Shown piece by piece: positions 656 to 24,480 of a stretch of 40,393 bases of DNA (within the stretch, counting starts at the first letter, position 1; each line of letters opens with the position of its first letter). Position numbers and translations under genes: made by a program. Source of the DNA: Syntrophomonadaceae bacterium (GTDB lineage: Bacteria; Bacillota; Syntrophomonadia; Syntrophomonadales; Syntrophomonadaceae); NCBI GenBank assembly GCA_012522955.1, contig JAAYJK010000062.1, positions 1-40,393 on the forward strand, given 5' to 3'. The notes below the pieces were generated by a model. It searched no databases, was not told the origin of the DNA, and saw only the letters and a list, made by a program, of their open reading frames with translations.

Positions 656-667
656 TTTAATTATCCC

Positions 668-2523: not shown

Positions 2524-2527
2524 AGTA

Positions 2528-3439
2528 TTATTTCTCAATTAGTTCTACGCCCGACGGAATCTCCTCTCGTGCAACTGTAATCTCATAATCACTGAAATTC
2601 CTTGGCGGCTTGTTCTTATCGATCCTTTTTACCTTAATAGCATCAAATAGTTTCTGCACTGGAGCATTTCCCATCTTGGATGAGTGCTTAAAAATAAATA
2701 TTTTTCTTGTTCCCATTAAACCACGGGCCGCTGAACGATCATGTTCAAACATATTTTCAAGGGCTTCCCAGAGCAGTTCCAAATCATCGGTAGAAAAGCC
2801 AGTCTGATTGGCAAGGGGAGCTGACACAAAGCCATGAGCACGATACAGACCGTAAGGAACAGTAAATTTGCGCCCCATGGTCCGATTATCGCCCCCCTGT
2901 TTTTCAGCTTCTGCTTCAGTAGTAACTGCCATCCTAGTAATACTATGTTCCAAGGATACAATGGGGTCTACCGAACGAGCAAAGGTTAACTGTACGGGTC
3001 CTCGAACCTGACCTGCATTAGCACCTGTGGACAACACCGCCCCGAAGGTTCTTATATCAAAAAAGTTTTGACATAAAAACTGCCTGGCTCGGTCAACCTC
3101 CTTTCCTTGTCCTTGTCCCTTTTTATTCCGTTTACTTCCGTCTGATGAATCAGCCGGAGGCTCATCCAACTTTATATCCAGGCTTTTATAAGCTTGTTCG
3201 ATGGTATTATTTAAAACCGCTTTTTCTCTGACGAATATTGCATTGGGAATCTGTTCATTCATTTTTAGCCCAACATAGTTTCTTATTTTTCGCTTTAAAC
3301 AAACATCCGTTACCAAACCATGACCTGTTTCAGCATCAATACGGGGCAAATTGCCTGCATCTGGATCGCCATTCGGGTTACCGTCTTTCACTTCAAACAA
3401 AATTACGAAATCATAACGTTTTTGAATATCTGTACTCAT
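2528..3439 (-). CDS. cas7: Type I-C Cascade backbone protein Cas7 (Csd2)
   Basis: This 303-residue protein has the Cas7/Csd2 signature at its N-terminus: a first strand followed by [16 protein letters not shown], then the [15 protein letters not shown] helix. Csd2 polymerises along the crRNA spacer to form the Cascade backbone. The ATG at 3439 follows a GAGAGGAAG site and lies four bases after the cas8c stop. A Lys/Gly/Gln-rich segment near residues 104-112 is probably a flexible loop. The gene looks intact. Confidence 0.95.
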
Positions 3440-3443
3440 TTTG

Positions 3444-3824
3444 TTACACTTCCTCTCTTAATTGTTTGGGATCAGCTTTCGGTTCAAAAAACGACTGGCG
3501 TTGATGGTAATAACCAATAGCAAAACGCCCTTGCTCGTGTAAATCAAGGTGGGCTGGGAAATCCATGAGATTCCCCATGATTTCTCCCAATAACCTTTCG
3601 AAGTATATGGTTCTGCCTTTGCTCTCCATCTTGGCAAGATGATGATTTTTTAGTCGAAGCAAATTGGTAAATACTGTTACCGGATTCGAACAGGCAGCTC
3701 CGTAGAAACGCTCTCTGATTGTTGCATTGATACCCGGATTTGCTTCTTCTTGGATTTTCTCAAGCGTAGCAAATAATCTGCCTAATTGATAACCAGTTGA
3801 TGGTTGGTTTATATCTAATTGCAT
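3444..3824 (-). CDS. cas11c: Cas11c small subunit from an internal start in cas8c
   Basis: Inside cas8c, in the same frame, codon 463 is an ATG (3822-3824) preceded by a perfect AAGGAGG with a five-base gap. This is a stronger initiation signal than that of several genes in the operon. Translation from it gives 126 residues starting [13 protein letters not shown]. It is rich in predicted helix, which is the size and position expected for Cas11c. It is established for type I-C, I-B and I-D systems that the small subunit is made by internal initiation within the large-subunit gene. That this locus does so is inferred from the motif, not demonstrated. Confidence 0.85.
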
Positions 3825-5210
3825 ATTAACCTCCTTATGTGAATCATTAGGATAAAACCGATAATAACGGTTTAAATAGGCTTTTATTAAAGCGGCTCGT
3901 ACTGGTTTTACCCGGTTTTCTGTATCGCTGCGGATCCGGCGCAGGCAAGCTTGAAGTAATGTGGAAGGATATGGTGTTCCGTTAAGAATTGAGCGCATAA
4001 AATCGCCAGCTAAATTAGGGGGTATGTTTTCACTTTTATCCTGGGTAGCAATATTGACTAGTATGCGCCATACAGAATAGTATTCAGGCTCTTTCAAAGG
4101 CTTTACAATAGCAAAATCTTCAAAATATTGCCTTATGCGTTCTGCAAATTCCGAGATCTTTCCTACTTGCCAGAAACGAACCGAAATACGTGCTGAATTA
4201 GGTGCCAGGCCAAGAATGTAGAAACGGTCATTTCCATCATCATTAAAATAGGCACCGCTGTTAACTGATTCAAACAATACCTTAACTCTTTCTACACCCA
4301 TATCAGGGTTATCTTTTTCTGGCTCTTTGAAGAAATAGGCAAAGTCTGATTCAAAAGATGATTTCTTCTCAGACCAGAAAACGGTAGAAGCATCGCCAAT
4401 ATGAATACATTGTTTTGATGACTCCAATAAAGCATTTAACGCTTTGGAATACTGAGAAGCCACCTGCTTACTAACAGGAGCATTTAAACTTTGAGCTTTA
4501 TCATATGAGTTAAATGCATCCTTATTAAAGCTTACAATACATGCTCCTGAAGTCTGCGCTCCCCATACTCCCTTGGTTACTGGATGTGTTAATTCAATAG
4601 GAACTTTTTCAACTCCTGTAACTAAACAGGTTCCAAGAGTAATATCCGGGCCGTTATTTTGTTCAACTACTCGCTCAAGTGCACTAACAACAGATTCTGA
4701 ATAAAATACTAAGCTTAACCCAGTTTGTGGTACATGAAAACTAAGTTTTACATTTCCTGCTCTCAACGTTTCACCATATTCAATATCATTTAGGGCTGAA
4801 TCAAAGTGGGTTCGATTTTCCAGCCCTTTTTCTAAAAACTTGCGAACTGCCATAATCCCCTTATCTTGTGTGTTACCGATCCATTTATCAATGGCTTCAA
4901 TCATGCTTCGAAGTCGGATGTTTCCCTTGTCACCTAGTCCAAAAACAAAGGAAGCATTGTCCCACAACAAATTTGCATCTTTACCGCTATTAGCGTGTTT
5001 CAATGCTTGTTTGCCAATGTTCGGTAAATCCAAAACACGAGGCACCAACTTTTTTCCATCAAGTTCTCTCATATCAGAAATACTTAGAATACTACCCTGC
5101 AAGTCAAGGCCTATTATAAAATCAATTCCTCCTTTTATCCAGCCATCTTGAGCCATCTCACCTTCTGCAGCCTTCCGGTCGTAATACTCTTTCAATGCTT
5201 GTAATATCAT
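3444..5210 (-). CDS. cas8c: Type I-C Cascade large subunit Cas8c (Csd1)
   Basis: This 588-residue protein is a Csd1/Cas8c large subunit, the PAM-recognition part of the I-C surveillance complex. The N-terminus [13 protein letters not shown] and the [11 protein letters not shown] segment are family-like, and the length is normal (about 560-620). Its ATG overlaps the cas5 stop by four bases, suggesting coupled translation. The last 126 codons are also predicted to be translated separately as Cas11c (see the entry ending at 3824). Confidence 0.94.
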
Positions 5211-5950
5211 CCCCTGACTTCCACCTCCCTCCGATCAGTATTTATTACTCCATTGATCATTTGAGCCCGGAAAAACAATGGAGCTGGATTGTTGATATTA
5301 TGTTCGAAGTCCATATCATACAACATAAAACCTAGATCTCTAGTTTCCGCAACGGTTTGCACAGGTTGTTCCATTGGATTTTTGATAAGTTGAAAATGGC
5401 AGGCAAATTCACGACATCCCAGATAGGGTCGATGAAAACATTGCCCTTTCCTAGCACGACGTTCAAATATAGCCGCATACTTGCCTTCATTTTCATCCAT
5501 CCTGCTGATTTGGGCTTGTTCCTGGTCATCTGCCCATAATTCTGGCAAGGCTGAACGGTTTGCTTTTCTCTGAGGCAGTGGAATGAAGTCAAAATAAGCG
5601 TGAATCCGATATCTAACATCCCGTAATAACAAACCGGCTCGTTGTTGCCGCTCATCTTCGATAAATATGCCCATAGGAGCGCCAAGGACACCTGCCATCT
5701 GCTTGGCTGTAGGAGCAGATATGATCTTGCCAACCTCGTTGCGGCGAACCGATATCCATTTAATTGGATTCATAACTTCTATTTTGGTCACATTCCATCG
5801 TATGGCAGGTTTCCAAAGAATTGCTTCAAAAATAGCCCGTGCAGCGGAGGGGGTAATTACATCATAACTCACCCGCTCCACCTTCATTTCTGGACGAGTG
5901 AAACATGCATAATCGCCCCAGACTTCCAAACACCATTTGGACAATTCCAT
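5207..5950 (-). CDS. cas5: Type I-C Cas5 (Cas5d), crRNA-processing endoribonuclease
   Basis: Cas5d of about 247 residues. The VWGDYACFTRPEMKVERVSY motif near the N-terminus, followed by the TPSAARAIFEAI helix, identifies it. In type I-C, Cas5d cuts the repeat RNA in place of Cas6 and stays on the 5' handle. The start is ambiguous. AAAGGAG at 5954-5960 is immediately followed by two ATGs (5953 and 5950), and a TTG at 5944 has more normal spacing. The longer reading from 5986 begins inside cas3 and has no binding site. The gene sits about ten bases after cas3. Confidence 0.93.
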   Translation of the reverse strand: MELSKWCLEVWGDYACFTRPEMKVERVSYDVITPSAARAIFEAILWKPAIRWNVTKIEVMNPIKWISVRRNEVGKIISAPTAKQMAGVLGAPMGIFIEDERQQRAGLLLRDVRYRIHAYFDFIPLPQRKANRSALPELWADDQEQAQISRMDENEGKYAAIFERRARKGQCFHRPYLGCREFACHFQLIKNPMEQPVQTVAETRDLGFMLYDMDFEHNINNPAPLFFRAQMINGVINTDRREVEVRG

Positions 5951-5960
5951 CATCTCCTTT

Positions 5961-8192
5961 CTATAGAATAAATTTCTCAGGATCAAAAACCACCTCTACC
6001 ATAAGACCAGTTTCCGAGTAATCAACCCGTGAACTGAGAGCAAAAATGCCAGGACTTATTTCAAGGATTGAACCTCTCTTAAGCAGTTGATTAAATTCGT
6101 TGCTGTAGATGTTAACTGTGTATCTTTGCAGTTTGCGCAGCAGCCAGCGATCTGGTCCCTTTAATTTCAACAAATGTACTAATTCTTCCCCATCTCCATA
6201 TGGAACGAGGATTGCCTGAGTATTTTCATCAATAAGGCGAAATTTCTCTGCCGCAGTTCGAAAAAAAATACTGCATTCCTTTAAGTCATTTTCAGGATTA
6301 AGCAAAGATAAGATATTCTCTCGATCCAAAGAATTCGCCTTCCAATATAGTTCGGAGAAATACTTGTTAAACAAGTCGTGACTCAAAGGATCTTTGTTGT
6401 TCATTGATAAAATATTGATTGTAGTCTCTGCGGCCTTGCGCAGTATGCCCATAGGTGCCTTCCGAGGTGGGATGAAAACCACTACTTTTCCCAGATCAGC
6501 TAATTTGCCCTCCCTGTTGCATCTTCCTGCCGCCTGGGCAAGGGAATCCAACCCCGCAAAAGCTCTATAAACTACCGGGAAGTCCAAATCCACTCCCGCC
6601 TCGACTAGCTGAGTGCTTATTACCCGGACCGACTCTTCGCTTTTTAATTTCTGCTTAATGCTTGCAATTACTTCGCTTCTATGTTGTCCGCACATTAAGG
6701 CTGACAGATGAAATGTCCCCTTTGGCATCATACTATGTAATTCGCGACAGCTTTTTCGATCAGACACTACACATAAAACCTGATTATAATTTTTTAATTC
6801 TTCAGCTATATCGTCCCATTTCGAAGGAGTGACCAGGTCAGGGGGCATTTCAACCTGGTATCTTTGTAATGATCGGTACAGCATATCAACTTCCTGTTCA
6901 TTCCCTACTATTTCCTTTATATTTTTCAAGCCCAAAAACGCTTGGCCATCAACCTTGCGCTCTTTAAATGCTGGCTGAGTAGCAGTAGAAATCACAAAAC
7001 TCACCTGATAATGATCAACTAACAATTGCATGGTTTCTAAAATCGGAGCCAAAAAATCAACTGGAACCAATTGTGCTTCGTCCAAAACAACTACAGACCT
7101 GGCAATGTTATGAATTTTTCGGCAGCGGCTAGATTTGGCTGCAAATAAGGATTCAAAAAACTGGACTGAAGTTGTTACAATTATGGGAGCATCCCAGTTT
7201 TCTGTGGCCAACCTTGATTTTGGCGTACTATTTTCCTCCTCCAGATTGGAATGATGTTCTACGACCTGTTCATGGCCTACTGTGGATCGAAATACATCTG
7301 CATTTTGTTCAATAATACTGGTATATGGGATTACATATATAATGCGGTCTAGATTATGGTTTACTGCGTGTTCAAGCGCAAAGGCTAGACTGGATAGTGT
7401 TTTACCACCACCGGTAGGGACTGTTAAGGAGAACATCCCCTGATCGTTAACTGCCATTTCAGTGCACCTTGCTCGAATATTTCTTCTAATTTGGTTTACC
7501 TTTGTATTTTCAGCTTTTTGATCAAAATTCTTAATGTAGCTATTAAACCGAGCAAGCAGTTCTGGCATTGAATAATATTTGCCCCGATAATTAGACTTAT
7601 CTTCATCCATATATAATTCCGTATCTAAAAAATCAGCATCTACCAGAGTCGAATACAACATCCTTATCCATAGAGATAAGTCTAATCCCCTGCTGAATTT
7701 CCAGGGAGGCATTCCCGGCTTTGAAGAACTCACTATTTCGATTATTGATTTATGAATATCATCGATGTGATTTAATTGGGCCTCTTGATATTGAAGCGAG
7801 GATTTTCCTGATCCTTCAGCAGCTGACCAATCGGGCAGTCCTGCATGATGTCCGGCAATACAATAAGCCAAGAGTCGCCCAACTCCCTTACCATACAATT
7901 TTTCCACTAGTTTAGCCCCATAAATTGCATGAGGGATCTTTCCTTTTTTACCTTCTAAGTGGGCTTCTTCGTCATACCCACTAACATTTTCCAGGTATTT
8001 TTGCCATACCTCCCTTCCCTTACCAACATCATGAGCTAATCCAACCGTTCTACCCCACTCTCCGGAATGAAATTTTGCAGCATTAAACTCTGCAATCCTG
8101 GCAGTATTTTCTAAATGTTTCGTCAGACCGTGAGGCAATGCCCAGGTACCGTCATTATTCTTGCGCACATGTGCAATGTATTCTTGACTCAT
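5961..8192 (-). CDS. cas3: CRISPR-associated helicase-nuclease Cas3 (HD fused)
   Basis: This 743-residue protein is a full-length Cas3 with the HD nuclease at the N-terminus and a superfamily 2 helicase after it. It nicks and degrades target DNA recruited by Cascade. The HD motif is His54-Asp55 in GLAHDVGKG, with His115-His116 as further metal ligands. Walker A is TGGGKT (260-265), the DExx box reads DEAQ (371-374), and motif VI is QAAGRCNREG (553-562). The ATG is preceded by AGAGGGA. It is the first gene of the cas operon and shows no disruption. Confidence 0.96.
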   Translation of the reverse strand: MSQEYIAHVRKNNDGTWALPHGLTKHLENTARIAEFNAAKFHSGEWGRTVGLAHDVGKGREVWQKYLENVSGYDEEAHLEGKKGKIPHAIYGAKLVEKLYGKGVGRLLAYCIAGHHAGLPDWSAAEGSGKSSLQYQEAQLNHIDDIHKSIIEIVSSSKPGMPPWKFSRGLDLSLWIRMLYSTLVDADFLDTELYMDEDKSNYRGKYYSMPELLARFNSYIKNFDQKAENTKVNQIRRNIRARCTEMAVNDQGMFSLTVPTGGGKTLSSLAFALEHAVNHNLDRIIYVIPYTSIIEQNADVFRSTVGHEQVVEHHSNLEEENSTPKSRLATENWDAPIIVTTSVQFFESLFAAKSSRCRKIHNIARSVVVLDEAQLVPVDFLAPILETMQLLVDHYQVSFVISTATQPAFKERKVDGQAFLGLKNIKEIVGNEQEVDMLYRSLQRYQVEMPPDLVTPSKWDDIAEELKNYNQVLCVVSDRKSCRELHSMMPKGTFHLSALMCGQHRSEVIASIKQKLKSEESVRVISTQLVEAGVDLDFPVVYRAFAGLDSLAQAAGRCNREGKLADLGKVVVFIPPRKAPMGILRKAAETTINILSMNNKDPLSHDLFNKYFSELYWKANSLDRENILSLLNPENDLKECSIFFRTAAEKFRLIDENTQAILVPYGDGEELVHLLKLKGPDRWLLRKLQRYTVNIYSNEFNQLLKRGSILEISPGIFALSSRVDYSETGLMVEVVFDPEKFIL

Positions 8193-8741
8193 TAGTTGTC
8201 CCTCTTTAGCTTTCTGCTAATTATTCGGATTACTTGTTCTAGCTCATTTTGTATCTGAGTCCCATGGCGTAAAAAAGGTCATTATAATACTTGATTGCTT
8301 TTATAGGTTAGTAAATAGTAACCCGAGTCAACCTACTGATCCTCCAGTTTATATCCTAGCAATCACCCCTAAATCAAGTACCAAATTATAAACCTGCCGT
8401 TCAGCTTCTAGTATTACACTAATCCTCATAATTCTCTTAATCCTTCCTTAATTTTCCACACAGTTTAATTTTACTCCATTTTTAATTGTGTGCAACCAGC
8501 TTACCTTTGGTGATATCGGTTTGCCCCTTAACACATCATGTATATGCAGTTTTTCGGCCATTTCAACGTTATATCTTTAAACATTAATTCTGCTGGATTT
8601 GCCAAAACAATCACTGGTAGATGTGTTACAACCTTAGGATCAAAGTCGGGTGCCTCATTTACAAAGACCAATTTTACCCATACAAAACAACAGCCGCTCA
8701 CGCGGCTGCCATATCACAGGTCAGTTTTCAACACTTTTTAT
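8193..8741. other. Intergenic region upstream of the cas operon
   Basis: No convincing gene lies in these 549 bases. A perfect minus-strand TATAAT at 8281-8286, about 90 bases before cas3, is the best -10 candidate for the cas operon, but the matching -35 position is poor. Near it lies a nine-base inverted repeat: TACTTGATT at 8288-8296 and AATCAAGTA at 8372-8380. The right end holds the terminator of the next gene. The plus-strand reading frame from 8538 runs into the antisense of that gene and is not considered real. Confidence 0.5.
8691..8708 (-). terminator. Terminator of the anti-sigma-like gene
   Basis: A seven-base stem, CAGCCGC (8691-8697) pairing with GCGGCTG (8702-8708), has a four-base loop and is followed on the minus strand by TTGTTTTG. 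It starts 34 bases after the stop codon at 8742. Confidence 0.8.
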
Positions 8742-9755
8742 CTACATCCTGGTCATCTCAAACTCCTCTACTTTCCCGTTCCACTCCACCTTAACCTGGT
8801 AGCAATCCGGGATATATGCTCCGCTTCCTTCATCATTGATTTTGACTTCTGTTCCATTAAGCTGGGTCTTAGTACCACCTCTGCTCAGGGTGTTGCTACT
8901 ATATTTATAACTCAAATCCTTTATCTCCTCTTCATCTCCTATATAGCGCAGAAAACCTTTCGTAAGCGCATAAGAATCCAAGCCAGTCACATCATTCTCG
9001 TTTTGAAACCAGTATTGAAAATACTGTATAGTGATTTCTCCCTGCCAGTGCTCTGACTGTCCTTTAAGGGTAACGGTTTCCCCCTGATTGAGGTCCAGGA
9101 ATACAGTATCAGTAAAGGCTTTCATTCGAGATTGGAGAGTTGGTAGGATGGCCGTGTATTCTTCCAGGGTTTCCGGCATTACTGCCTGGTAAAATAACAT
9201 GAGATTGCGGGCTGGTCGATACACCGGAGAGGGGTAGTATTTTGCTATGTTATTCTCACCAAGCCTTCGTTTATCCACTGAATCAAATACATAAACCAGG
9301 ATACTGTCTTCACTCTTATCTACCTGGTACTCAATGGGTAACACCCCATTGACGGCCAGATCGTCGTCAGTGCTGGCAAGCTTGGGGCTCAACTCCAGTC
9401 CATTGGCCTTAAGAGCCCTGACCGCGTCCCTGGCCTCCAGCAGTTCATTATCCGGCATAATTCCCATCCCATAGCTAATTATTCCTACTCCTATCATTAG
9501 CAGCAAGACTGACGCAATGGTTAAGAATTGTTTGTTTCTCTGTTTTTGATGTGGGTGCTCATTCAGTGGGACACAGTTTTCTTCTGCCTCTGCTGGGTTG
9601 ACTATAGCATAGTGTTCAGTACTATTCTTCATTACTTGTCTGCAGTCTGGGCAGTGAGTAAGGTGTTCCTCTACCTTCAAGTGATTTTCATCTGTTAATT
9701 CCTGTTTGATATATAAGGGTATCAAATCTCTTATTTCTTGACAGCCTTGAATCAT
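8742..9755 (-). CDS. Zinc-finger anti-sigma factor-like membrane protein (orphan)
   Basis: This 337-residue protein has an N-terminal zf-HC2 domain with the H-x3-C-x2-C motif (His31, Cys35, Cys38), typical of anti-sigma factors. One membrane helix follows at about residues 77-97, then a large extracytoplasmic domain that I do not recognise. Such proteins usually hold an ECF sigma factor until an envelope signal releases it. No sigma gene is adjacent, so its partner is unknown. It lies alone between cas3 and cas6 with its own promoter and terminator. A regulatory role is inferred; it could also be a zinc-finger membrane protein with another task. Confidence 0.75.
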   Translation of the reverse strand: MIQGCQEIRDLIPLYIKQELTDENHLKVEEHLTHCPDCRQVMKNSTEHYAIVNPAEAEENCVPLNEHPHQKQRNKQFLTIASVLLLMIGVGIISYGMGIMPDNELLEARDAVRALKANGLELSPKLASTDDDLAVNGVLPIEYQVDKSEDSILVYVFDSVDKRRLGENNIAKYYPSPVYRPARNLMLFYQAVMPETLEEYTAILPTLQSRMKAFTDTVFLDLNQGETVTLKGQSEHWQGEITIQYFQYWFQNENDVTGLDSYALTKGFLRYIGDEEEIKDLSYKYSSNTLSRGGTKTQLNGTEVKINDEGSGAYIPDCYQVKVEWNGKVEEFEMTRM

Positions 9756-9840
9756 TCTCCCATCTCCCTCCCTAAAACTGCCGATTTGTTGGCTCTAATT
9801 CTTAAATGGTTAACAAATTGCATATTTGGTATATTTTTCT

Positions 9841-9849
9841 ATTATATCA
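9841..9849 (-). promoter_or_regulatory. Extended -10 promoter of the anti-sigma-like gene
   Basis: On the minus strand the sequence reads TGATATAAT, an extended -10 (TGn plus TATAAT), about 85 bases before the ATG at 9755. No recognisable -35 lies 17 bases upstream, which is common for extended -10 promoters. It does not look like an ECF-type promoter. Confidence 0.5.
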
Positions 9850-9913
9850 CAAAAAGAAGTCAGGGGGGACATGTGTTAGGTCGGATAACAGCCTGCGTAA
9901 TTCACTGCTGTCA

Positions 9914-9933
9914 TTACAAAACAAGTTTTGTAA
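9914..9933. repeat. Perfect 20-base palindrome, candidate operator
   Basis: TTACAAAAC (9914-9922) and GTTTTGTAA (9925-9933) form a perfect inverted repeat around AA. It lies about 65-90 bases upstream of the extended -10 of the anti-sigma-like gene. Its symmetry and position suggest a dimeric regulator site. It lacks a U-rich tail or GC-rich stem, so it is not a normal terminator. Confidence 0.5.
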
Positions 9934-9993
9934 ATGAGATATAACTGAACTAGTAATTCCTGAGCAATCTGGTGCCACCTTTCCCACGCAACA

Positions 9994-10020
9994 GAAAATA
10001 CCGCCGTTTTACCGGCGGTA
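9994..10020 (-). terminator. Terminator downstream of cas6
   Basis: An eight-base GC-rich stem, TACCGCCG (9999-10006) with CGGCGGTA (10013-10020), has a six-base loop and is followed on the minus strand by TTTTC. It is about 130 bases beyond the cas6 stop and is the only candidate terminator for that gene. Confidence 0.7.
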
Positions 10021-10151
10021 CACTTGTCTGGGCATGACTTAGTATATAAAGTTAGTGTATGGCATAAGCAAGCATTAGGAATTATGTAATAGCCTCATTA
10101 TTAGACTACACTTACACTATATACCTAAATATAGCTGAGCAGTATACTGAT

Positions 10152-10907
10152 CTATACCGCTTCTTGCTTTACTATTTCCCAGCATCCGAATCCCTGGTTG
10201 TTTTTAAAGCCCAGACCTGCTTCATAAGCTACTTTGATCAATTCGGGGCAACCTTTCAACCAGTATATTCCGGCATATCCTTTCACTACCGTTCCTCTGT
10301 AGTTTAGAATCTTTTCGAATTTCTTCTCCTGGCTGCCATTGGGAATAATCTTGATTTCTTTGTTATCGGGCCGATAACCATGTACCACTTCATATTTGCT
10401 CAAGAGATTATTCCTGGCGATTTCCGTGAACTGGTTCTGCCAAGGGGAATAATAATTGGTGTATTTCTTTTCTTCGCGTATGCTGGTAGTACATCCAACC
10501 AGAGGTGACAGCATTTTGATCTGCACTTTTTTTCCGAATTTAACCGCTTCGTGCATATCAATACGTTCAATTTCAACTTCATTATGTCCTAAGAAAATTA
10601 GTTCGGATTTTAGCAGTTTATCAGCCAAGTCCAAAATAAATTCATCCACGGCAGAAGATATGATGAGTTTAGCTGGGGGAAACAGGGTTATTTTCCCGGT
10701 TTCCTTGCTGAATTTAAATTTCCCCATCAAGCGGGAAAATGTAAAAAGGTTGAACTTTCCGTTAGATGCGCCTTTGATGTCCTGGTGTAAAAATTGACTG
10801 TAGTCTCGATCGAGTTGATTCTTATACATGAAGCCCTGTAGGATGTGATTATATTGTACTGGCAACACAATCTCACGGTCAGAATTAAACACTACGCTGA
10901 TTCGCAT
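10152..10907 (-). CDS. cas6: Solitary CRISPR-associated endoribonuclease Cas6
   Basis: This 251-residue protein shows the Cas6 C-terminal glycine-rich loop GLGFKNNQGFG at residues 231-241. The N-terminal pattern LPVQYNHILQGFMY is followed by FLHQ; His41 is a candidate catalytic residue. Cas6 cuts repeat RNA in type I-A/B, I-D and type III systems. The gene is isolated, about 2 kb upstream of the type I-C operon and separated from it by the anti-sigma-like gene. Since I-C uses Cas5d for processing, this enzyme probably serves an array elsewhere in the genome, or is a remnant. It appears intact. Confidence 0.9.
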   Translation of the reverse strand: MRISVVFNSDREIVLPVQYNHILQGFMYKNQLDRDYSQFLHQDIKGASNGKFNLFTFSRLMGKFKFSKETGKITLFPPAKLIISSAVDEFILDLADKLLKSELIFLGHNEVEIERIDMHEAVKFGKKVQIKMLSPLVGCTTSIREEKKYTNYYSPWQNQFTEIARNNLLSKYEVVHGYRPDNKEIKIIPNGSQEKKFEKILNYRGTVVKGYAGIYWLKGCPELIKVAYEAGLGFKNNQGFGCWEIVKQEAV

Positions 10908-11169
10908 ATTCTATAAATCCCTTCCACTTATTGCCTTCATCAAGTGTTACCTTTATTCTACTACCCTGGAATGCCTATAGATAGCATATTTTAGCGTCAA
11001 ATTCTATCATTTTATGCAATATTGCAGCAGATATAGACCTCTTGGATGTTTTGCCAATAACTTTATTCTCATTCCTACGTCCATAATCCATTGCCCTTTG
11101 GGGATTTACTCCCTATAGACCAGGCATTAGGCTATTGTCCACTTTTGTCAGAAAAGATTTTTGCTATCT

Positions 11170-11931
11170 CTAGTCTCCGCTGATAATGTCCCCCAAAATT
11201 CCGCCCAGACCTCTGGTTTCTCCACCGCTGTTGCCGGCCTTAAAGCCAGATGCCGAGGAAATACGATCCGCCAACCTGGATAGGGGCAGGCTCTGCAAAT
11301 ATACCACTCCCGGTCCGGTAAGAGTAGCCAGGAAAAGTCCTTCCCCTCCGAACAGAGCGTTCTTAAAGCCACCCACGAATTGTATGTCGTACTTTATGGT
11401 GGCTTCCATACCAGCCAGACATCCGGTATCCAGCCGAATGGTTTCTCCGGCGCCCAGTTCTTTCTTGATTATCATACCTCCAGCATGAATAAAGGCCATT
11501 CCATCACCTTTTAATCTCTGTAGAATGAATCCTTCCCCTCCAAATAGTCCGGCTCCTAACTTACGGGTAAATGCAATTTCTATATCAATTCCGTTGGCTG
11601 AACAAAGGAAAGAATCTTTTTGCGCAATAAACTGACCTCTATGGGCTCCCAAATCGATAGGTATTACTTTTCCCGGATAGGGCGCTCCGAATGCAACCCG
11701 CTGTTTTACCCGTCCGTTGTTGAGAAAGGTAGTTATGAAGAAACTCTCCCCGGTTATAGCCCGTTTAAAGCCTTTGAACAGACCTCCGCCTGTTCCGGTT
11801 TGCATTACGATGCCCTGTTCCATGTACATCATGGCTCCAGCTTCTGCTCTGACCCCTTCTCCCGGATCTAATTCGATTTCTACCATTTGCAGATCGTCCC
11901 CAAATATTTGATAGTCAATAACATCGGCCAT
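11170..11931 (-). CDS. AIM24 / TIGR00266 family protein
   Basis: This 253-residue protein belongs to the AIM24 (TIGR00266) family, recognised by the AEAGAMMYMEQGI segment near residues 30-42, GGGLFKGFKRAITGES near 48-63 and repeated glycine-rich beta segments with LFGGEG (about 124 and 193). It has no signal peptide or membrane helix and should be a cytosolic beta-rich protein. The bacterial function is not established. It is alone on the minus strand, downstream of the terpene synthase gene and beyond that gene's terminator. Confidence 0.88.
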   Translation of the reverse strand: MADVIDYQIFGDDLQMVEIELDPGEGVRAEAGAMMYMEQGIVMQTGTGGGLFKGFKRAITGESFFITTFLNNGRVKQRVAFGAPYPGKVIPIDLGAHRGQFIAQKDSFLCSANGIDIEIAFTRKLGAGLFGGEGFILQRLKGDGMAFIHAGGMIIKKELGAGETIRLDTGCLAGMEATIKYDIQFVGGFKNALFGGEGLFLATLTGPGVVYLQSLPLSRLADRISSASGFKAGNSGGETRGLGGILGDIISGD

Positions 11932-12002
11932 TTTCTATCTCCTTTCGTTCTTTATGACTATAATAAATACCTGTTACTAAATCTAATATTACATGCCAAG
12001 AT

Positions 12003-12031
12003 AAAAAATTCCTGCCGATTAAGAGCAGGAA
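12003..12031 (-). terminator. Terminator of the gatD-polyprenyl-terpene unit
   Basis: TTCCTGC (12009-12015) pairs with GCAGGAA (12025-12031) around a nine-base loop. On the minus strand the stem is followed by a run of Ts matching the A run at 12003-12008. It lies 34 bases after the stop of the DUF2600 gene. Confidence 0.9.
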
Positions 12032-12065
12032 CTGTAAAGTTTAATCGTCTGTGATCCCATGTTAT

Positions 12066-13166
12066 CTATAAAAACTTCCGGACTACTTTACATAGCTGAT
12101 AAGTCCGAAAGGCAGGGGGGCCAGATTCGGCCAGGAGTTCACTAGCGCTTTGCTGGAAAGCTTGCTGCTTTACTTTGGGGTCGGATAAATACAGGGCCAA
12201 GAGACCTTCTACTATAGTTTTGGCCAAGGCACTGTTGGACAGCTTACTGGCACAGCGGTGAGATTGTCGCACTAATAATTTAAGCCGCTCCAAGATCTCC
12301 TCCCTATCCGTATAGTAGAATGTAAAGTTCAAATCTCCTCCCTCCAGGTCTTCCTGGCGGTCTATATAATAGTCGAGAAGTATGTGTAGGCTGCATATCC
12401 ATGGAAAATAGGCGTTTAAACTGCTTTTCACCTCCTCTGCTGACAAATCTTCGGAAGCTGCAAGTGCCATTAAGGCAAATAGAGCCAGGGTAGATCCACA
12501 GGCAGCGGCAAATTCCTGCCAATAAAGGTCAGGATAGGATTTAGCTTCGCTCATAATCCATTCTTTAAGCTGCTCTTCCCTGATATCTGTCATCAAATGC
12601 TTATAGACCTGCAGATTTGAGTATAAGTTCACCAGCTGAAGGCTCTCTTTTTCTACTAAAGACCAGGAGGGCATTTGCTGCACCCAATGCTGACATTCCT
12701 CTACCAATTGCTGCAAATATCCTCCGTCGTTTTTATAGGGATAATACTGGTAGTAGTCCTCATGTGCTTTTCCGGGACTTAGGGCCACTATCAAGGCCCT
12801 GTGCAGTTGTTGAAAGGCTCTGCCCTCTGTGCATCCAGCCCGGTCACAGAGGTTGTCCAGGTAATCGCAAATAGTCTGATAGGCTACAATCAGGGCTGTT
12901 AACTCCTCCCGCCTGGAGTCCGCAGCCAAAGCAAATACGGCCCCTCCCTGACAGTGAAAGTCCTTATGCTTTATACTTAACAAAGCCTGAAGTCTTAGTT
13001 CACTGCTCTGGCACTGCCGGGCTGCTTGTTTCCAGCGACCCAAGTGTTTCTTGACCAGAGGCAGTATGTAAAATATATAGCGAGCCATAATACTGCTCTG
13101 TCCTTTAATCGACCGCCGGCTGCATGAGCTGGAGATATCAGCCAGAGTGCTATTGGGTATTTCCAC
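12066..13166 (-). CDS. DUF2600 family, tetraprenyl-beta-curcumene synthase-like (YtpB)
   Basis: This 366-residue protein resembles the DUF2600 family, whose characterised member, Bacillus YtpB, cyclises heptaprenyl diphosphate to a C35 terpene. The Asp-rich metal-binding motif is DYLDNLCDR at residues 101-109. A second acidic helix, LHILLDYYIDRQEDLEGGD, comes later. The gene follows a long-chain polyprenyl diphosphate synthase, which could supply the substrate, and their ends overlap by 17 bases. The GTG at 13166 has a GGGTGGTGG site. An ATG at 13088 would give 340 residues. The substrate is inferred from family and context. Confidence 0.85.
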   Translation of the reverse strand: MEIPNSTLADISSSCSRRSIKGQSSIMARYIFYILPLVKKHLGRWKQAARQCQSSELRLQALLSIKHKDFHCQGGAVFALAADSRREELTALIVAYQTICDYLDNLCDRAGCTEGRAFQQLHRALIVALSPGKAHEDYYQYYPYKNDGGYLQQLVEECQHWVQQMPSWSLVEKESLQLVNLYSNLQVYKHLMTDIREEQLKEWIMSEAKSYPDLYWQEFAAACGSTLALFALMALAASEDLSAEEVKSSLNAYFPWICSLHILLDYYIDRQEDLEGGDLNFTFYYTDREEILERLKLLVRQSHRCASKLSNSALAKTIVEGLLALYLSDPKVKQQAFQQSASELLAESGPPAFRTYQLCKVVRKFL

Positions 13167-14139
13167 TTGTTGACCACCACCCTTGCCCCGTATTGGCTTC
13201 TGGCAGGCATCCGTAACAAGTATCCATCAGCCTGCAGGCCAGGTCCTGCAAGGCCTGTCGCTCTGGACTAACGGGCAATAGATTGATACTCTCCAGGGCT
13301 CGCTGTAAAAATTGCCGGGACTTGAGCATACATTGCTCCAAGGCCCCGCTTTCCCAGAGCATGCTAACTATCAACGGCAGTTTATCCTTGCTGCTTTTTC
13401 CTGCTTCTATCAGATTTCTTAATTTCATTCCCCACTCCCAGTCTTTTAAGGCCAGGATAATCGGCAGGGTTATGTTTCCCTGGGTCAAGTCATTTCCAGA
13501 TGGTTTTCCTAGTTGCTTGGCTTCTGCTGTAAAATCCAGCACATCGTCCATTATTTGGTAAGCATAACCCAGGTTTAATCCAAAGTCATACAGTAGCTGA
13601 ACCTGTGAGGATGGAGTCTCTGCCGTCAAGGCCCCTACTCTGCAGGCAGAGGCAAAAAGGCAGGCAGTCTTGCGGTAGGTCTTGTCGTAGTACTCCTCTT
13701 CACAAATGTCCAAATCGCTGTTCAGAGCCATTTGTTTTATCTCTCCGGTACACATTAGCTGTATGGTAGAGGTAATGCTGTCCATAACCTCATCCAAACC
13801 ATGTTGGTTGATCAAATTAAAAGCGGCCGCAAACAGATAGTCGCCGGTGATCACACTGGCTTGATTGCCCCAGCGGATGTTTACGCTTTCACGTCCCCGC
13901 CTGACATGGGCCTCATCAATGACATCATCGTGGAGCAGCGAAGCCAGGTGAATCAGTTCAACCGCTACCGATATATCTATTACTTGTTTAGGTTCATGGG
14001 GATGTAGTTGGGCGGACCTATATACTAGACGGGGTCTTAGCATTTTTCCGCTGCTCTGCAGCAGATAGTCTATGATCAAGTTTAGTCCGGAATAATTGCT
14101 GTGCAGCACCTCTATCATACGGTTCTGGATTATTTCCAT
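13150..14139 (-). CDS. Long-chain polyprenyl diphosphate synthase (HepT-like)
   Basis: A trans-isoprenyl diphosphate synthase of at least 329 residues. It has the GKMLRPRLV substrate loop at 31-39 and both Asp-rich motifs, DDVID (71-75) and DDVLD (198-202). It extends farnesyl diphosphate by isopentenyl units; chain length cannot be read with certainty. The YtpB-like gene next door suggests heptaprenyl, and menaquinone side chains are an alternative. The ATG at 14139 has no ribosome binding site. The frame stays open upstream, where AAGGGGTGGT (about 14185-14194) precedes ATT, ATC and CTG codons, so the true N-terminus may be 12-15 residues longer. Confidence 0.88.
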   Translation of the reverse strand: MEIIQNRMIEVLHSNYSGLNLIIDYLLQSSGKMLRPRLVYRSAQLHPHEPKQVIDISVAVELIHLASLLHDDVIDEAHVRRGRESVNIRWGNQASVITGDYLFAAAFNLINQHGLDEVMDSITSTIQLMCTGEIKQMALNSDLDICEEEYYDKTYRKTACLFASACRVGALTAETPSSQVQLLYDFGLNLGYAYQIMDDVLDFTAEAKQLGKPSGNDLTQGNITLPIILALKDWEWGMKLRNLIEAGKSSKDKLPLIVSMLWESGALEQCMLKSRQFLQRALESINLLPVSPERQALQDLACRLMDTCYGCLPEANTGQGWWSTSGNTQ

Positions 14140-14269
14140 GGGAAAAGAATCAATCCCAGGCTTAGCTTTACTCAGCTTGATAATACCACCCCTTAATGCC
14201 AGCTTATGGTATAGTATTACCCCGTGCTTAGAAAAACATTCCCATACTAAAAGGTTGGAGTGTTGAGTA

Positions 14270-14998
14270 CTATATGAGACGATTCTTCATCTGTTCATGA
14301 GCGGTTAATTCTATGTCATCATCCAGCCTGGAGCCAAATTCTATCCCTCGTCTCTGAGCCATGGTTTTAAGGAAGAAGTCTGCTACTCCCGGATTTTTCG
14401 GCAAGAGGGGACCATGCAAGTAAGTTCCTATCAGATGGTGATATTTAATGCCTTCCTTTTGGTCTTCTCCATTATTTCCATAACCTCGCAAGACTTCCCC
14501 AAAGGGCTGTAAAGAATTATCCTCAAAATAGGTTCTACCTCCATGGTTTTCAAATCCTACCACCGTCATTTCTTGCCCTCCCAGACAGGCTTTAATCAGT
14601 ACGTTTCCTATCAAACGATTCTTGGTGGCTCGGGTAGTAAAGTCGAAGAATTTTAGTCCCTCCATCAGATGTCCATCCAGATCCAGATAGGAGCTTCCCA
14701 GCAGTTGATAAGCTCCGCATATACATAGAACTGGCATACCTTCCTCTATGGCTACCATAAAGCTATCTGAACGCTTTACCAGATCTTGATATACCAAACC
14801 CTGCTCCCGGTCTGAACCTCCACCCATGAATATCATATCCAGGCTTGAATAATCCAGGTTATCTCCCAGCCGGATATTTTTGATCCGGCAGTCATGTCCA
14901 TGCCATACCATTCTCTGCTGCAGGCAGAGCAAATTGCCTCTATCTCCATAAAGGTTGAGCAGGTCCGGATATAGGTGGGCTATGGTAAAAACAGCCAT
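14270..14998 (-). CDS. gatD: Lipid II isoglutaminyl synthase, glutaminase subunit GatD
   Basis: This 242-residue class I-type glutamine amidotransferase is related to CobB/CobQ. The nucleophile is Cys94 in LCICGAYQLLG and the catalytic His is His194 in GTYLHGPLLPKNP. It releases ammonia from glutamine and passes it to MurT, which amidates the D-Glu of lipid II. In known genomes murT and gatD are adjacent. Here the lipoprotein gene and a frameshifted membrane-protein gene lie between them. An AAGGGG site precedes the ATG, and the gene starts 16 bases after the broken gene. Confidence 0.93.
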   Translation of the reverse strand: MAVFTIAHLYPDLLNLYGDRGNLLCLQQRMVWHGHDCRIKNIRLGDNLDYSSLDMIFMGGGSDREQGLVYQDLVKRSDSFMVAIEEGMPVLCICGAYQLLGSSYLDLDGHLMEGLKFFDFTTRATKNRLIGNVLIKACLGGQEMTVVGFENHGGRTYFEDNSLQPFGEVLRGYGNNGEDQKEGIKYHHLIGTYLHGPLLPKNPGVADFFLKTMAQRRGIEFGSRLDDDIELTAHEQMKNRLI

Positions 14999-15014
14999 AT
15001 TTTAAAACCCCTTC

Positions 15015-15285
15015 TTATTTATCAAAAGAATTATGTAGCTTGTCTACCTGCTGCAATATAAATAGAGCCAAAGCGGAACTGGCCAAGGCTATAAGCTCCG
15101 CCCATGCTATACTACGCCCCTGGTCAGCAACAGACGGAAACAGCAGACAAGTGATTAGTGCCGCCAGCATTATACCGGCACTGAGGAGCATCGGCAGCAG
15201 TTTTACGATTCTCCTTGCTCAGTCTAAAGAAATAGGTCAATAACATCGGCAGAATAACTATCAGAGTAGTATTTTCCCAGAACAT
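15015..15285 (-). pseudogene. Small membrane protein gene with a one-base frameshift
   Basis: An ATG at 15285 has a perfect AAGGAGGT seven bases upstream. Its frame gives a hydrophobic start (MFWENTTLIVILPMLLTYFF) and then a hydrophilic tail ending after 53 residues. Skipping one A of the run at 15201-15204 joins it to a second frame of 62 codons. That frame encodes two more likely membrane helices (LLPMLLSAGIMLAALITCLL and a helix ending LALFILQQ) and stops at 15015, just before gatD. The corrected protein has 89 residues. It may be a pseudogene, a homopolymer sequencing error, or a frameshift site. I do not recognise the family. Confidence 0.75.
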
Positions 15286-15317: not shown

Positions 15318-15767
15318 CTAATCCAGATCTGCTCCCTTTACTTGTATAATCTGCTCGGTGCCTAAGCTGAAGCCAGTAATAATAGGTTCCATTGCTATAA
15401 TATCCTGTTTGTTCAGATCCCCGGCCTCAAAGATGAATTCTCCCTGCACCTTGATAGACCCTCCAGCTTTAACCTTTTCCTTAACCTCTATCCTAGTATC
15501 TCCACTAGATATTCGGCCCTTAATATCAGCTGTTATTAATGGTTCTACAAAAGAAATATAACTATCCTGCTTGGAATCATTGCATAATTGGATAGTATAG
15601 GACATTTTTTGCTCATCAAAACGCTCTGGATCTACAGCTCCCATGGACGATACCATACTGCCCAACTGCAGACCCTTACACTCTGTTGTGTGTTGTGCAC
15701 AGCCGCTAATGAAAATTATTGCAATTAACATTAGTACTGCCACATTTTTTATTCCATTTTGTCGCAT
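15318..15767 (-). CDS. Predicted lipoprotein in the murT-gatD cluster
   Basis: This 149-residue protein has a short positively charged N-terminus, a hydrophobic stretch and a lipobox ISGC, with Cys23 as the predicted lipidated residue. The mature part is mostly beta-strand-like, with a KEKVKAGGSIKVQGEF segment that recalls small extracellular beta-sandwich domains. I do not recognise the family. It starts 17 bases after the murT stop and is probably in the same transcript, which suggests an envelope role. No function can be assigned. Confidence 0.8.
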   Translation of the reverse strand: MRQNGIKNVAVLMLIAIIFISGCAQHTTECKGLQLGSMVSSMGAVDPERFDEQKMSYTIQLCNDSKQDSYISFVEPLITADIKGRISSGDTRIEVKEKVKAGGSIKVQGEFIFEAGDLNKQDIIAMEPIITGFSLGTEQIIQVKGADLD

Positions 15768-15784: not shown

Positions 15785-17167
15785 CTATGCCTGCATTTGC
15801 TGGACTCCAACGGTTTTCTCCGCCTCATCCTGCTGCTGCATTTTCTTCAGTATCTTCTGGCAGTCAAATAAGGCCGTATAAGTGGAAAGTATGTAGCTCA
15901 CCTCTCCTGGCCCTGCCGTAGCTGCCCTTATTCCCTCTTCCAGAGAGCTTTTTATACTAATCAATCGGGAATCTATCCCGCTGTATTTGATTCGAACTGC
16001 CATATCTCCACTTCTTTGGCCGGAACATACTACCTTTACTATCTGGGCCTTGTCCTGAGCCAGGACTTCCACATCCGCATCCCAAATCCAGGATATATCC
16101 CGGCCATCAGCCGCATTGTCGTTTAATGCCACAAAGAGATTTTTGGACTGCTGATCATATAGCAGGGTGGATAGGGTTTGGTTGAGACCAGTAGGGTTTT
16201 TTACCAATATCAATACCGTCCGCTTACCGTTTATGATAAAGTTTTCCATCCGCCCCGCCCGAGGCTGGTAGCCGGCTATAGCCTTTTGAATAACGCCATC
16301 CTCTATGCCTACCAATCGGGCTGCGGAAACTGCGGCCAGAATATTATAGGCATTATAAAAGCCTTGATAGGGGCTTTCAATAGCAAGATCGTTGACTTTC
16401 ATCTCAATAAAAGGAGTCATCTTCAGCCCCCGCCCGGTAAAATTCAAATGGGGGTTATGATTCTGACAGCGGGGACAGTTGAATTGCCCTAGTTGAGCAT
16501 AATGGTATCTGCTATATTCAAGTTCTTCCCCACAAAAAACACAATACCTGCCTTCCCGGCTTTCTTCGCTTTCCATGCTGTCATATACAGTGTCTTCGAA
16601 GCCGTAATACCAGCAGTGCAGACCGGTGTCGTGTTGGAAATGGGTTATAAGGGGATCATCCCCATTTAAAACCAGCTCAATATCAGTGTTGCGAACACCA
16701 TCTTTGATCAGATTAATGGTATGATCCAGTTCCCCATAGCGGTCCAGCTGATCCCGAAAGAAATTGGTGATAATCACTACTCGGGGCCGAGCTTCGTGTA
16801 TCAACAAAGGAACATAAGCTTCATCAACTTCCAATAAAGCATAATCGAATTTATTTCGACCCAGGATATCGGAAGCTTTAATAAAAGCAGTGGTAATTCC
16901 GGTAAGCATATTGGCCCCGGCCGAATTATGGACCAGAGAATAGCCTTTTTCTTTTAGTATGGCTGCTATCATATTGCTGGTAGTAGTTTTGCCGTTAGTA
17001 CCAGTTACAATGAAAATCTCTTCATCAATGTTGGCAGCCAGTGCTTTTAATATCCCGGGATATATTTTGCGAGCCACCCGGCCTGGAAAATCGGTTCCTT
17101 GATTTCCTAAACGGCGACTTAATAATATTACTATTTTACCGACCATTATGGCCAAAATTTTTCTCAA
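15785..17167 (-). CDS. murT: Lipid II isoglutaminyl synthase, Mur ligase subunit MurT
   Basis: This 460-residue Mur-ligase homologue has the ATP-binding loop GTNGKTT at 56-62. An inserted zinc ribbon follows (Cys209, Cys212, Cys231, Cys234), characteristic of MurT. The C-terminal DUF1727 domain begins around LVKNPTGLNQTL and includes DNAADGRDISW. With GatD it amidates the second-position D-glutamate of the peptidoglycan stem. A TTG start fits a GGGAAGGG site eight bases upstream; the ATG at 17146 is an alternative. It is the first gene of the murT-lipoprotein-membrane protein-gatD run. Confidence 0.94.
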   Translation of the reverse strand: MRKILAIMVGKIVILLSRRLGNQGTDFPGRVARKIYPGILKALAANIDEEIFIVTGTNGKTTTSNMIAAILKEKGYSLVHNSAGANMLTGITTAFIKASDILGRNKFDYALLEVDEAYVPLLIHEARPRVVIITNFFRDQLDRYGELDHTINLIKDGVRNTDIELVLNGDDPLITHFQHDTGLHCWYYGFEDTVYDSMESEESREGRYCVFCGEELEYSRYHYAQLGQFNCPRCQNHNPHLNFTGRGLKMTPFIEMKVNDLAIESPYQGFYNAYNILAAVSAARLVGIEDGVIQKAIAGYQPRAGRMENFIINGKRTVLILVKNPTGLNQTLSTLLYDQQSKNLFVALNDNAADGRDISWIWDADVEVLAQDKAQIVKVVCSGQRSGDMAVRIKYSGIDSRLISIKSSLEEGIRAATAGPGEVSYILSTYTALFDCQKILKKMQQQDEAEKTVGVQQMQA

Positions 17168-21251: not shown

Positions 21252-24035
21252 CTATGGGTTCAAACGGGATAACACCTGGCTGCATCGAGCACATAGAGTG
21301 GGATGAGCGGTATCACTTCCCACCGAAGGTTCAATAATCCAGCAGCGCTCGCATTTATCACCCTCAGCCGGCTGCACTCTTACCCAGATACCACTTACCT
21401 CTTCCAGGGCCAAGGCATCCTGGCTGCGCTCAGTTGCTGATTTAATATCCACCCGAGATACTATAAATATCTTCTCCAAATCTTCTACTCTCTGGAGCAA
21501 TTGGGCCTTATCCTCATCAGCATAAATGGTAATCCAGGCTCCCAGAGAGTGACCGATTACTTTCTTGACCCGGGCCTCCTCCAAGGCTTTGGTTACTACT
21601 TCCCTGACTACCAGCACCCGGTCTATTGTATTTTCTACTTCTTCGTTGGCATATTCATCCTTGCCTCGAGGCCATTCCAAAAGCTGAACACTAATGGGAT
21701 CAGCTGTTTTTTTAAGATGGCTCCAGATTTCTTCACTGGTAAAGGCCAGAATAGGAGTCACAATAATAACAACCGCATTGATAAGCTCATAAAGTACGCT
21801 TTGAGCTGCTTTTCGCTCAGCATCATCCGGATGTGAACAATACAATTTATCTTTTAATACATCAAAGTAGATACTGCTCAGATCGATAGTACAGAAGTTA
21901 TGCACCGAGTGAAAAACCACATGGAACTCATACTCATCATAAGCCCGGCTAACCTTACGAACCAGTTTATCCAGTTTGGCCAGAGCCCATTTATCCAGAT
22001 CAGTCAGATTGTTGTAAGCTACTTTATCGCTGGCGGGATCAAAATCGAATAAATTACCCAGGATAAAGCGGCAGGTGTTTCTGATCTTTCGGTAGGCTTC
22101 AGCACTTTGCTTAATAATATTCTGGGATACCGCAATATCGGTGCGGTAATCAGCTGATGATACCCATAGCCTGAGTATATCTGCTCCCATCTGTTGGATC
22201 ATTTTCAATGGGTCAACCACATTGCCCAGAGATTTAGACATCTTGCGGCCATGTTCATCCACCACAAATCCGTGGGTTAATACTTGTCTGTAGGGCGGAA
22301 CTCCTCTTACCGCTACCGAGGTGGATAATGAGGAGTTGAACCAACCCCGATGCTGGTCACTGCCTTCCAGGTACATGTCAGCGGGCCAGCGCTGGTCATC
22401 TCTAGTTTCCAGTACTGCCATATGGCTGGAACCCGAGTCAAACCATACATCCATTATATCTGTTTCTTTACGGAATTTGCCGCCTGAACAATGAGGACAC
22501 TGGTAATCGGCTGGAAGCAGCTGCTCAGCCTCCTCTTTAAACCAGATATCAGCCCCATGCTGGGCAAAAAGATCAGCTATCCGATTGATAGTATCATCGT
22601 TGATAACTGCTTCCCCGCAGGATTGGCAATAGAATATGGGAATGGGAACCCCCCAGGTTCTTTGACGGGAAATACACCAGTCTCCCCGGTCCCGGACCAT
22701 GTTGTAAATCCGTTCCCGTCCCCAGGCTGGAATCCACTTGACCTGATCAATGCCCTTTAGGGCATCTTCTCTAAAACCATCGATAGAGGCAAACCACTGT
22801 TCAGTAGCCCGGTAGATTATGGGCTTCTTACAGCGCCAGCAGTAGGGGTATTGATGGTTTACACTGGAAGCATAAACCAAAAGACCCAATTGTTCCAACT
22901 GTGCTATCACATTTTTATTGGCATCATGTACAAAAAGACCCTGAAACATGCCGGCTTCACTGGTAAATCTACCTCTGTCATCTACCGGAGAGATGACTTC
23001 CAGACCATATTCTTTACCTACGCAAAAGTCATCTTCACCATGTCCGGGGGCAGTATGAACGCACCCGGTACCTGCTTCCAGAGTTACGTGCTCACCTAAA
23101 ACCAGCAGGGAATCCCGGTCAAAGAAGGGATGCTGACACACTACTCTTTCCAGCTCCGAGCCCTTGAATTCCTGCAGAATAGTGTATTTATCCCATCCTA
23201 CTTGGGCAGCCACATTTTCCAGCAGTTCCTTGGCCACCAGGTATTTTTCATTATCGACCTGCAACAAAAGATATTCATAATCAGGATGTAGGCTTATACC
23301 TGTATTAGCCGGCAGAGTCCAAGGAGTAGTAGTCCAGATGATAACAAAAGCATCTTCCGGTAAAATTCCCCGGCCGTCTTTGAGCGGAAATTTAACATAA
23401 ATCGAAGGAGAAGTTTTGTCACCATATTCTACCTCGGCTTCCGCTAAGGCCGTTTCACAATCGGAGCACCAGTAAACGGGTTTTAATCCTTTATATATAT
23501 AGCCCTTTTTAGCCATTTCTCCGAATACTCTAACCTGTACCGACTCAAAGCTGGGATGCAAGGTTAGATAGGGCTGGGCCCAGTTGCCCCGTACCCCTAA
23601 ACGCTTAAATTCCTCGCGCTGAATATCTACATATTTCAGGGCATATTGCTGGCAGTGCTTTCTGAATTCCAGCACGTTGGTTTTATGCCGGTCAATACCC
23701 AAAGCCTTTATGGCCTGCTGTTCAATAGGCAGACCATGAGTATCCCAGCCCGGAACATAAGGGGCATCAAAACCAGTCATAGACCGATACTTGATAATAA
23801 TATCCTTTAAAACCTTGTTTAAGGTATGACCCAGGTGAATATCACCATTGGCATAAGGAGGGCCATCATGGAGAATAAATCTATCCCGGCCAGTATTTTT
23901 CTCCTGTACCTTTTCATATATTTCGTTTTCTTCCCAGAACTGCAATATTTCAGGTTCCTTATTAGGAAGGTTTGCTCTCATGGGAAAATTAGTCTGAGGC
24001 AAATTCAATGTTGCATCATATTTACCCTTAGCCAT
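21252..24035 (-). CDS. ileS: Isoleucyl-tRNA synthetase
   Basis: This 927-residue class I synthetase charges tRNA-Ile. The HIGH motif is HLGH (67-70), after PYANGDI, and KMSKS is at 598-602. The editing domain with TTTPWTLPANT lies near 235-245. Zinc ligands are CERCW and CARC near the C-terminus. The length and architecture are those of the ordinary bacterial enzyme. A GAGGTGG site precedes the ATG. The gene follows an isoleucine T-box and is continuous with the ACT-domain gene. Confidence 0.98.
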   Translation of the reverse strand: MAKGKYDATLNLPQTNFPMRANLPNKEPEILQFWEENEIYEKVQEKNTGRDRFILHDGPPYANGDIHLGHTLNKVLKDIIIKYRSMTGFDAPYVPGWDTHGLPIEQQAIKALGIDRHKTNVLEFRKHCQQYALKYVDIQREEFKRLGVRGNWAQPYLTLHPSFESVQVRVFGEMAKKGYIYKGLKPVYWCSDCETALAEAEVEYGDKTSPSIYVKFPLKDGRGILPEDAFVIIWTTTPWTLPANTGISLHPDYEYLLLQVDNEKYLVAKELLENVAAQVGWDKYTILQEFKGSELERVVCQHPFFDRDSLLVLGEHVTLEAGTGCVHTAPGHGEDDFCVGKEYGLEVISPVDDRGRFTSEAGMFQGLFVHDANKNVIAQLEQLGLLVYASSVNHQYPYCWRCKKPIIYRATEQWFASIDGFREDALKGIDQVKWIPAWGRERIYNMVRDRGDWCISRQRTWGVPIPIFYCQSCGEAVINDDTINRIADLFAQHGADIWFKEEAEQLLPADYQCPHCSGGKFRKETDIMDVWFDSGSSHMAVLETRDDQRWPADMYLEGSDQHRGWFNSSLSTSVAVRGVPPYRQVLTHGFVVDEHGRKMSKSLGNVVDPLKMIQQMGADILRLWVSSADYRTDIAVSQNIIKQSAEAYRKIRNTCRFILGNLFDFDPASDKVAYNNLTDLDKWALAKLDKLVRKVSRAYDEYEFHVVFHSVHNFCTIDLSSIYFDVLKDKLYCSHPDDAERKAAQSVLYELINAVVIIVTPILAFTSEEIWSHLKKTADPISVQLLEWPRGKDEYANEEVENTIDRVLVVREVVTKALEEARVKKVIGHSLGAWITIYADEDKAQLLQRVEDLEKIFIVSRVDIKSATERSQDALALEEVSGIWVRVQPAEGDKCERCWIIEPSVGSDTAHPTLCARCSQVLSRLNP

Positions 24036-24071: not shown

Positions 24072-24302
24072 AAAAAACTTTCCATCCCCAAGGGACGAAA
24101 AGCACTTTCCGCGGTACCACCCTTATAGCACCTGTTGAAACAGGCACCACTCCAGACTCTTAACGCGAGCAACGTTCAAGCTTTATCACTTAACCCTTCA
24201 GCTTGACAACTCCCGGGTGATCTTCAACTAAAACTCGCTGTCGGGCTTACACCATCCCCGACTCGCTGATGGCGATTGTTTTGGTTTACTGTCCCGTTCA
24301 TA
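24072..24302 (-). promoter_or_regulatory. Isoleucine-specific T-box leader
   Basis: The minus strand from about 24302 has a stem I region, the T-box consensus AGGGTGGTACCGCGG (24109-24123), and then a terminator. The terminator pairs CTTTTCGTCCC with GGGGATGGAAAG and ends in six Ts (24072-24102). The likely specifier is ATC at 24219-24221, in the context GAAGATCACC, which codes for Ile and fits the downstream ileS. Uncharged tRNA-Ile should stabilise the antiterminator and allow readthrough. Upstream, 24303-24480 shows no gene and no strong promoter that I can assign. Confidence 0.94.
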
Positions 24303-24480
24303 GTAATTAAATGTAAAATTTATGGCTTTAAAAATATTTATTATTGTAGCACATAGACTAGCTCCAGTACAACTCCTCCCCCTAATTATTGCCCTTATTT
24401 CTCCATTCTAATCACTCAGGGCGTTGTTGGAGCTAGCTGCCGTCACCTGCCTGCTAGCGACCAATAAACCATTGATGCCC

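Follow-up and report, generated by a model that had tools for sequence, protein, structure and literature searches.

Between murT and gatD, the Syntrophomonadaceae genome analyzed here carries a genuine small membrane-protein gene whose reading frame is broken at a single position, and the reading we lean towards is a recent inactivation, i.e., a fresh pseudogene created by one frame break. Ordinary recent decay or a one-spot assembly error is most likely to account for the break, rather than a special decoding signal. The window, i.e., the whole stretch of 40,393 nucleotides that was analyzed, is contig C11 of a 2.53 Mb draft genome in 137 contigs.

The gene lies on the minus strand at 15015 to 15285; an earlier sequence-only reading had given these coordinates correctly, without the strand. 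As that reading had claimed, a strong ribosome binding site opens the reading frame: the ATG at 15285 is preceded by AAGGAGGT. The frame starting there reaches a stop at 15124 after 53 codons (unshifted frame, 15124 to 15285), and the final 25 residues of this frame bear no resemblance to the homologue described below. The coding frame changes at an AAAA run at 15201 to 15204, corresponding to TTTT on the plus strand. Read through this run, the gene yields an 89-residue product with three hydrophobic helices, and the joined frame contains no further stop before 15015, where the +1-frame ORF ends 16 bases short of the gatD start at 14998. Using codon log-odds trained on 27 genes of the window, we found that the part upstream of the AAAA run scores +6.7 bits in its own frame (-36.2 and -7.3 bits in the other two) and the part downstream +17.8 bits in the +1 frame (-56.3 and -34.8 bits in the others). 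This two-frame coding signal exceeds chance. The sequence-only reading had described both parts as hydrophobic, and hydropathy analysis resolved three hydrophobic stretches in the joined protein, the first upstream of the run and the second and third in the downstream-frame ORF, which comprises 58 residues from an internal ATG (15015 to 15191). The break thus falls between hydrophobic stretches 1 and 2.

The surrounding genes are arranged on the same strand in the order murT, lipoprotein gene, broken gene, gatD, polyprenyl synthetase gene and a gene for a DUF2600 protein. The murT gene (15785 to 17167; Pfam MurT_C, 7.6e-36, and Mur_ligase_M) and gatD (14270 to 14998; Pfam GATase_3, 1.4e-36) encode the subunits of lipid II isoglutaminyl synthase; the NCBIfam MurT and GatD models match strongly, yet below their equivalog cut-offs. 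Directly upstream of the broken gene, positions 15318 to 15767 encode the lipoprotein of 149 residues, for which neither Pfam nor NCBIfam returned a match. The placement between the lipoprotein gene and gatD and the end of the joined product just before gatD had both been described correctly from the sequence alone.

Comparison of the 89-residue protein with related genomes, which the sequence-only reading had proposed as a check, was carried out within the genus on four other genomes (G013, G014, G015, and G016). In G014, a MAG of the same genus (Syntrophomonas sp. BM5_bin.8, JAENZN010000021.1), the slot contains murT, the lipoprotein gene, an intact gene for a 90-residue membrane protein and gatD, so that a related protein is present in the same gene order. 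Over 90 alignment columns, the G014 homologue and the joined product share 34% identity (pairwise BLASTP E 3e-19), and the homologue likewise has three hydrophobic stretches. Because a genome of the same genus carries this intact homologue in the same slot, we conclude that the small membrane-protein gene is real. Residues 1-27 and 29-89 of the joined product each match the G014 homologue better than 1000 of 1000 shuffles, whereas 269 of 1000 shuffles match it as well as the unshifted 25-residue tail does. Together with the switch in codon log-odds, this confirms that the frame is regained past the AAAA run, as had been proposed, and the comparison places the break inside the conserved part of the gene. 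When the joined protein is aligned to the relatives, it is one residue short at the break site; given this one-residue gap, the relatives fit one base gained as well as two bases lost. Compared as DNA, the 3' end of the window gene aligns at chance with G014 (279 of 500 shuffles as good) and with G016 (219 of 500), and its homology therefore rests on the protein comparison.

The same comparison bears on the notion that the two overlapping ORFs of 53 and 58 residues are translated separately and assemble into one membrane unit. The downstream ORF does have a start codon of its own, the ATG at 15191, and encodes both the second and the third hydrophobic stretch. However, an AAGGAG lies 19 bases before this ATG and no nearer Shine-Dalgarno sequence was seen, the 25 residues that end the first ORF do not look like the family, and the G014 homologue is not split. 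We therefore regard a split gene as the least credible way to explain the locus.

The other members of the genus differ in what they carry between murT and gatD. In G015, which is listed as 100% complete, the lipoprotein gene is followed by gatD with no membrane-protein gene between them. A decayed 3' relic suspected there by eye was rejected, since its best local alignments are at chance level, being equalled by 469 of 500 shuffles for G014 and by 331 of 500 for G016. The slot is not covered in G013, the nearest species (MurT 91%), whose contig stops 96 bases past the murT match, and no GatD was found in this genome at E <= 1e-20. The G016 slot contains a diverged 87-residue ORF whose first half is family-like (E 4e-5 to 1e-4 over 26-30 residues) and whose second half shows a weak likeness, with 14 and 32 of 1000 shuffles as good. 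Both relatives that carry the gene, G014 and G016, lack the break and have one frame through the loop.

The slot in G016 (L034, 560-1060) is rearranged, with a stranded 3' tail following the 87-residue ORF before gatD. This tail aligns to the 3' end of the G014 gene over 96 bases without a gap (score 40, shuffle mean 9.9, 0 of 500 shuffles as good). Compared as protein, it was equalled by 0 of 1000 shuffles against G014, by 41 of 1000 against the window product and by 393 of 1000 against the ORF of G016 itself. The tail may be either a tandem copy reduced to its end or a tail stranded by an insertion. Taken together, the murT-gatD run of this one genus contains an accessory slot in which the small membrane protein is carried, rearranged or missing, and the enzymes that flank it, MurT and GatD, stay intact.

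These observations are consistent with recent inactivation, in which a single small indel in the AAAA run or next to it would have broken the membrane-protein frame in this genome. Ribosomes starting at the normal ribosome binding site would yield a protein of 53 residues that contains the first helix alone, which makes a fresh pseudogene the most likely reading. The break would be recent because both the start codon and the ribosome binding site are preserved and no additional stop interrupts the joined frame. Loss of the gene is tolerated, since elsewhere in the genus the gene is missing or its slot rearranged; of the three informative relatives, two have an empty or a rearranged slot, which makes genuine decay easy to believe. 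We infer that the break is present in the living genome and that its product is non-functional. On the other hand, the gene carries a single lesion, as would be expected from an error.

Alternatively, the break may stem from a consensus or assembly error in the A run, in which case the living organism would have an intact gene of about 90 residues; we judge this a serious but less probable possibility. The lesion is a single one at a homopolymer in a gene that is otherwise intact with ribosome binding site, start and stop, and the genome is a draft in 137 contigs. The expectation from the literature also leans to error: according to Antonov et al. (2013, PMC3711429), BLASTp-validated singleton frameshifts in the genomes they studied are expected to stem from sequencing error, not from true indels. 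However, the A run is only four bases long, the gene is dispensable in the genus so that true decay is easy, and the alignment with G013 over about 28.1 kb of coding sequence shows no unbalanced indel except two near gene ends. In the window, 25 of 26 genes show no net frame change relative to G013 (21,363 of their 21,951 coding bases aligned), and 6,747 bases of ORFs on contig C1 contain one unbalanced gap, near the 5' end of an ORF. As the coding sequence aligned with G013 is nearly free of unbalanced indels, the assembly shows no general homopolymer problem. We also performed an ORF-level census, which took those ORFs of the relatives that have a match of 45% identity or more. One window frame covered at least 85% of the length in 57 of 68 ORFs from G013, 30 of 33 from G014, 22 of 24 from G015, and 24 of 30 from G016; the remainder, as far as inspected, appear to be antisense or end ORFs, and the base-by-base comparison was relied on in place of this census. 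The comparisons with relatives covered the window from 9990 onwards, beyond the CRISPR region (1 to 9989), with positions 9990 to 15000 entering this census only.

The one window gene with a net frame change against G013 is affected at 34992, where the two differ by an unbalanced single base beside a run of five A on the plus strand. This difference lies near the 3' end of the gene at 34965 to 35669 and changes its last codons.

The sequence-only reading had offered three options, namely recent inactivation, a sequencing error in a homopolymer and a real +1 frameshift site. While G014 supports a real gene and its gene order, the evidence did not support a real +1 site. In a programmed +1 shift, tRNA-Lys would slip from AAA to the overlapping AAA, aided by pairing of an AAGGAG with the 16S rRNA, and the full protein would be made. 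Such an AAGGAG is present at 15211 to 15216 on the minus strand, six bases upstream of the AAAA run, where it encodes Lys-Glu; re-pairing of tRNA-Lys on AAAA would be perfect, and both frames are coding according to the codon log-odds. However, the site is not conserved, as both relatives with the gene read this region in one frame: the G014 loop lacks any stretch of four or more A, and in G016 seven consecutive A lie two to four codons before the site and are read unshifted. Furthermore, the codon after AAA is ACU, a sense codon and not a stop, and the RNA fold of 15215 to 15110 is no better than that of shuffles (z 0.14 in a pseudoknot-free prediction). The AGGAG is base-paired in the predicted local fold. 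Among 27 ordinary genes of the window, a Shine-Dalgarno-like word occurs within 18 nt upstream at 5 of 118 in-frame AAA|A sites. The AAGGAG before the AAAA run is probably incidental, and a programmed shift is very unlikely. Slightly more doubtful still is a Shine-Dalgarno-assisted +1 frameshift on A-AAA that works without a stop codon, arose in this species only, rescues an otherwise broken gene and controls how much of the small membrane protein is produced next to the lipid II amidation enzymes.

To describe the distribution of the gene beyond the genus, we searched family and order genomes. Of the 54 family genomes, 49 have a MurT match at E <= 1e-20. Across 30 MurT loci (L032-L061), nine of which had their murT-gatD slots examined in full, GatD was found in 29, the lipoprotein in four and a match to the membrane-protein query P0001 in two, i.e., the window and G014. 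At E <= 1, P0001 matched 24 of the 54 family genomes, the window's own included; its best non-self match was G014 (1.3e-12), and all others, at E 0.0038 or weaker, were set aside as membrane-composition noise. Among the 63 order genomes, five were matched by alignment A1 at E <= 0.01. The matches in G000, G014, and G016 arise by construction, as these are rows of the alignment, and those in G019 and G020 were discounted because they have E 0.005 and lie inside frames of more than 400 residues. When genome contigs were scanned with P0001, none of 73 pattern matches was confirmed. A GatD scan of the contigs returned 18 loci, 17 of which extend upstream of gatD (all except L083), and among them the lipoprotein and the membrane protein occur together only in L071, the same record as G014. 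Thus, no credible copy of the membrane protein was found outside the genus among the 63 order genomes or in the contig scans, and the gene looks genus-restricted and dispensable from these sequence comparisons.

The lipoprotein gene shows a somewhat wider distribution. It is located between murT and gatD also in G014, G015, and G016 and was found in five of 63 order genomes at E <= 0.001. In G009 (L104), one of these five, which belongs to another genus, a diverged lipoprotein match with an open frame lies between murT and gatD (HMMER E 2.2e-15, 28% identity; not reported by tblastn), and the membrane-protein gene is absent from this slot. The presence of a diverged lipoprotein gene there in another genus suggests that the lipoprotein may be older in the murT-gatD slot than the membrane protein.

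The joined protein had no Pfam family at cut-off (best E 0.033) and no NCBIfam family at cut-off (best E 0.0024, 16.6 bits vs a cut-off of 231.35). A PHROGs search likewise gave no convincing E-value, the best among three homologues being 0.16. AlphaFold, run from three sequences, predicted three helices with low confidence (mean pLDDT 67.4), and this model is too weak for a fold search. Guessing from the position of the gene, its product might be an accessory membrane partner near lipid II amidation that is not required genus-wide. In annotations, this ORF should be marked as carrying a frame break instead of being entered as two separate genes.

Elsewhere in the window, positions 1 to 10907 contain a CRISPR locus with three 33-nt repeats at 34 to 199 (within the searched stretch 1 to 700), near genes matching Cas1, Csd1 (I-C type), and Cas3. 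A Cas6-like gene is located at 10152 to 10907, beyond a zf-HC2 gene. As I-C systems typically lack Cas6, this gene may be part of another system. In addition, a T-box leader (24088 to 24310, minus strand, 130 bits) lies upstream of a 927-residue ORF at 21252 to 24035, a candidate isoleucyl-tRNA synthetase as judged by eye.

Programmed +1 frameshifting of the prfB type combines an upstream Shine-Dalgarno-like word with a stop codon at the site. The broken gene resembles it in having such a word upstream and in the +1 direction but differs in that it has no stop at the site, another spacing and a site that is not conserved. The broken gene poses no challenge to known biology. As in the known murT-gatD lipid II amidation genes (PMC3267633, PMC3266927), murT and gatD are close to each other on one strand; a difference is that a lipoprotein gene and a membrane-protein gene stand between them here, neither of which scored above the cut-off of any family searched. 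Finally, the gene resembles recent pseudogenes and singleton frameshift genes of bacteria (Antonov et al., 2013, PMC3711429), with which it shares one isolated break, an open frame in a relative and a break position that is not conserved.
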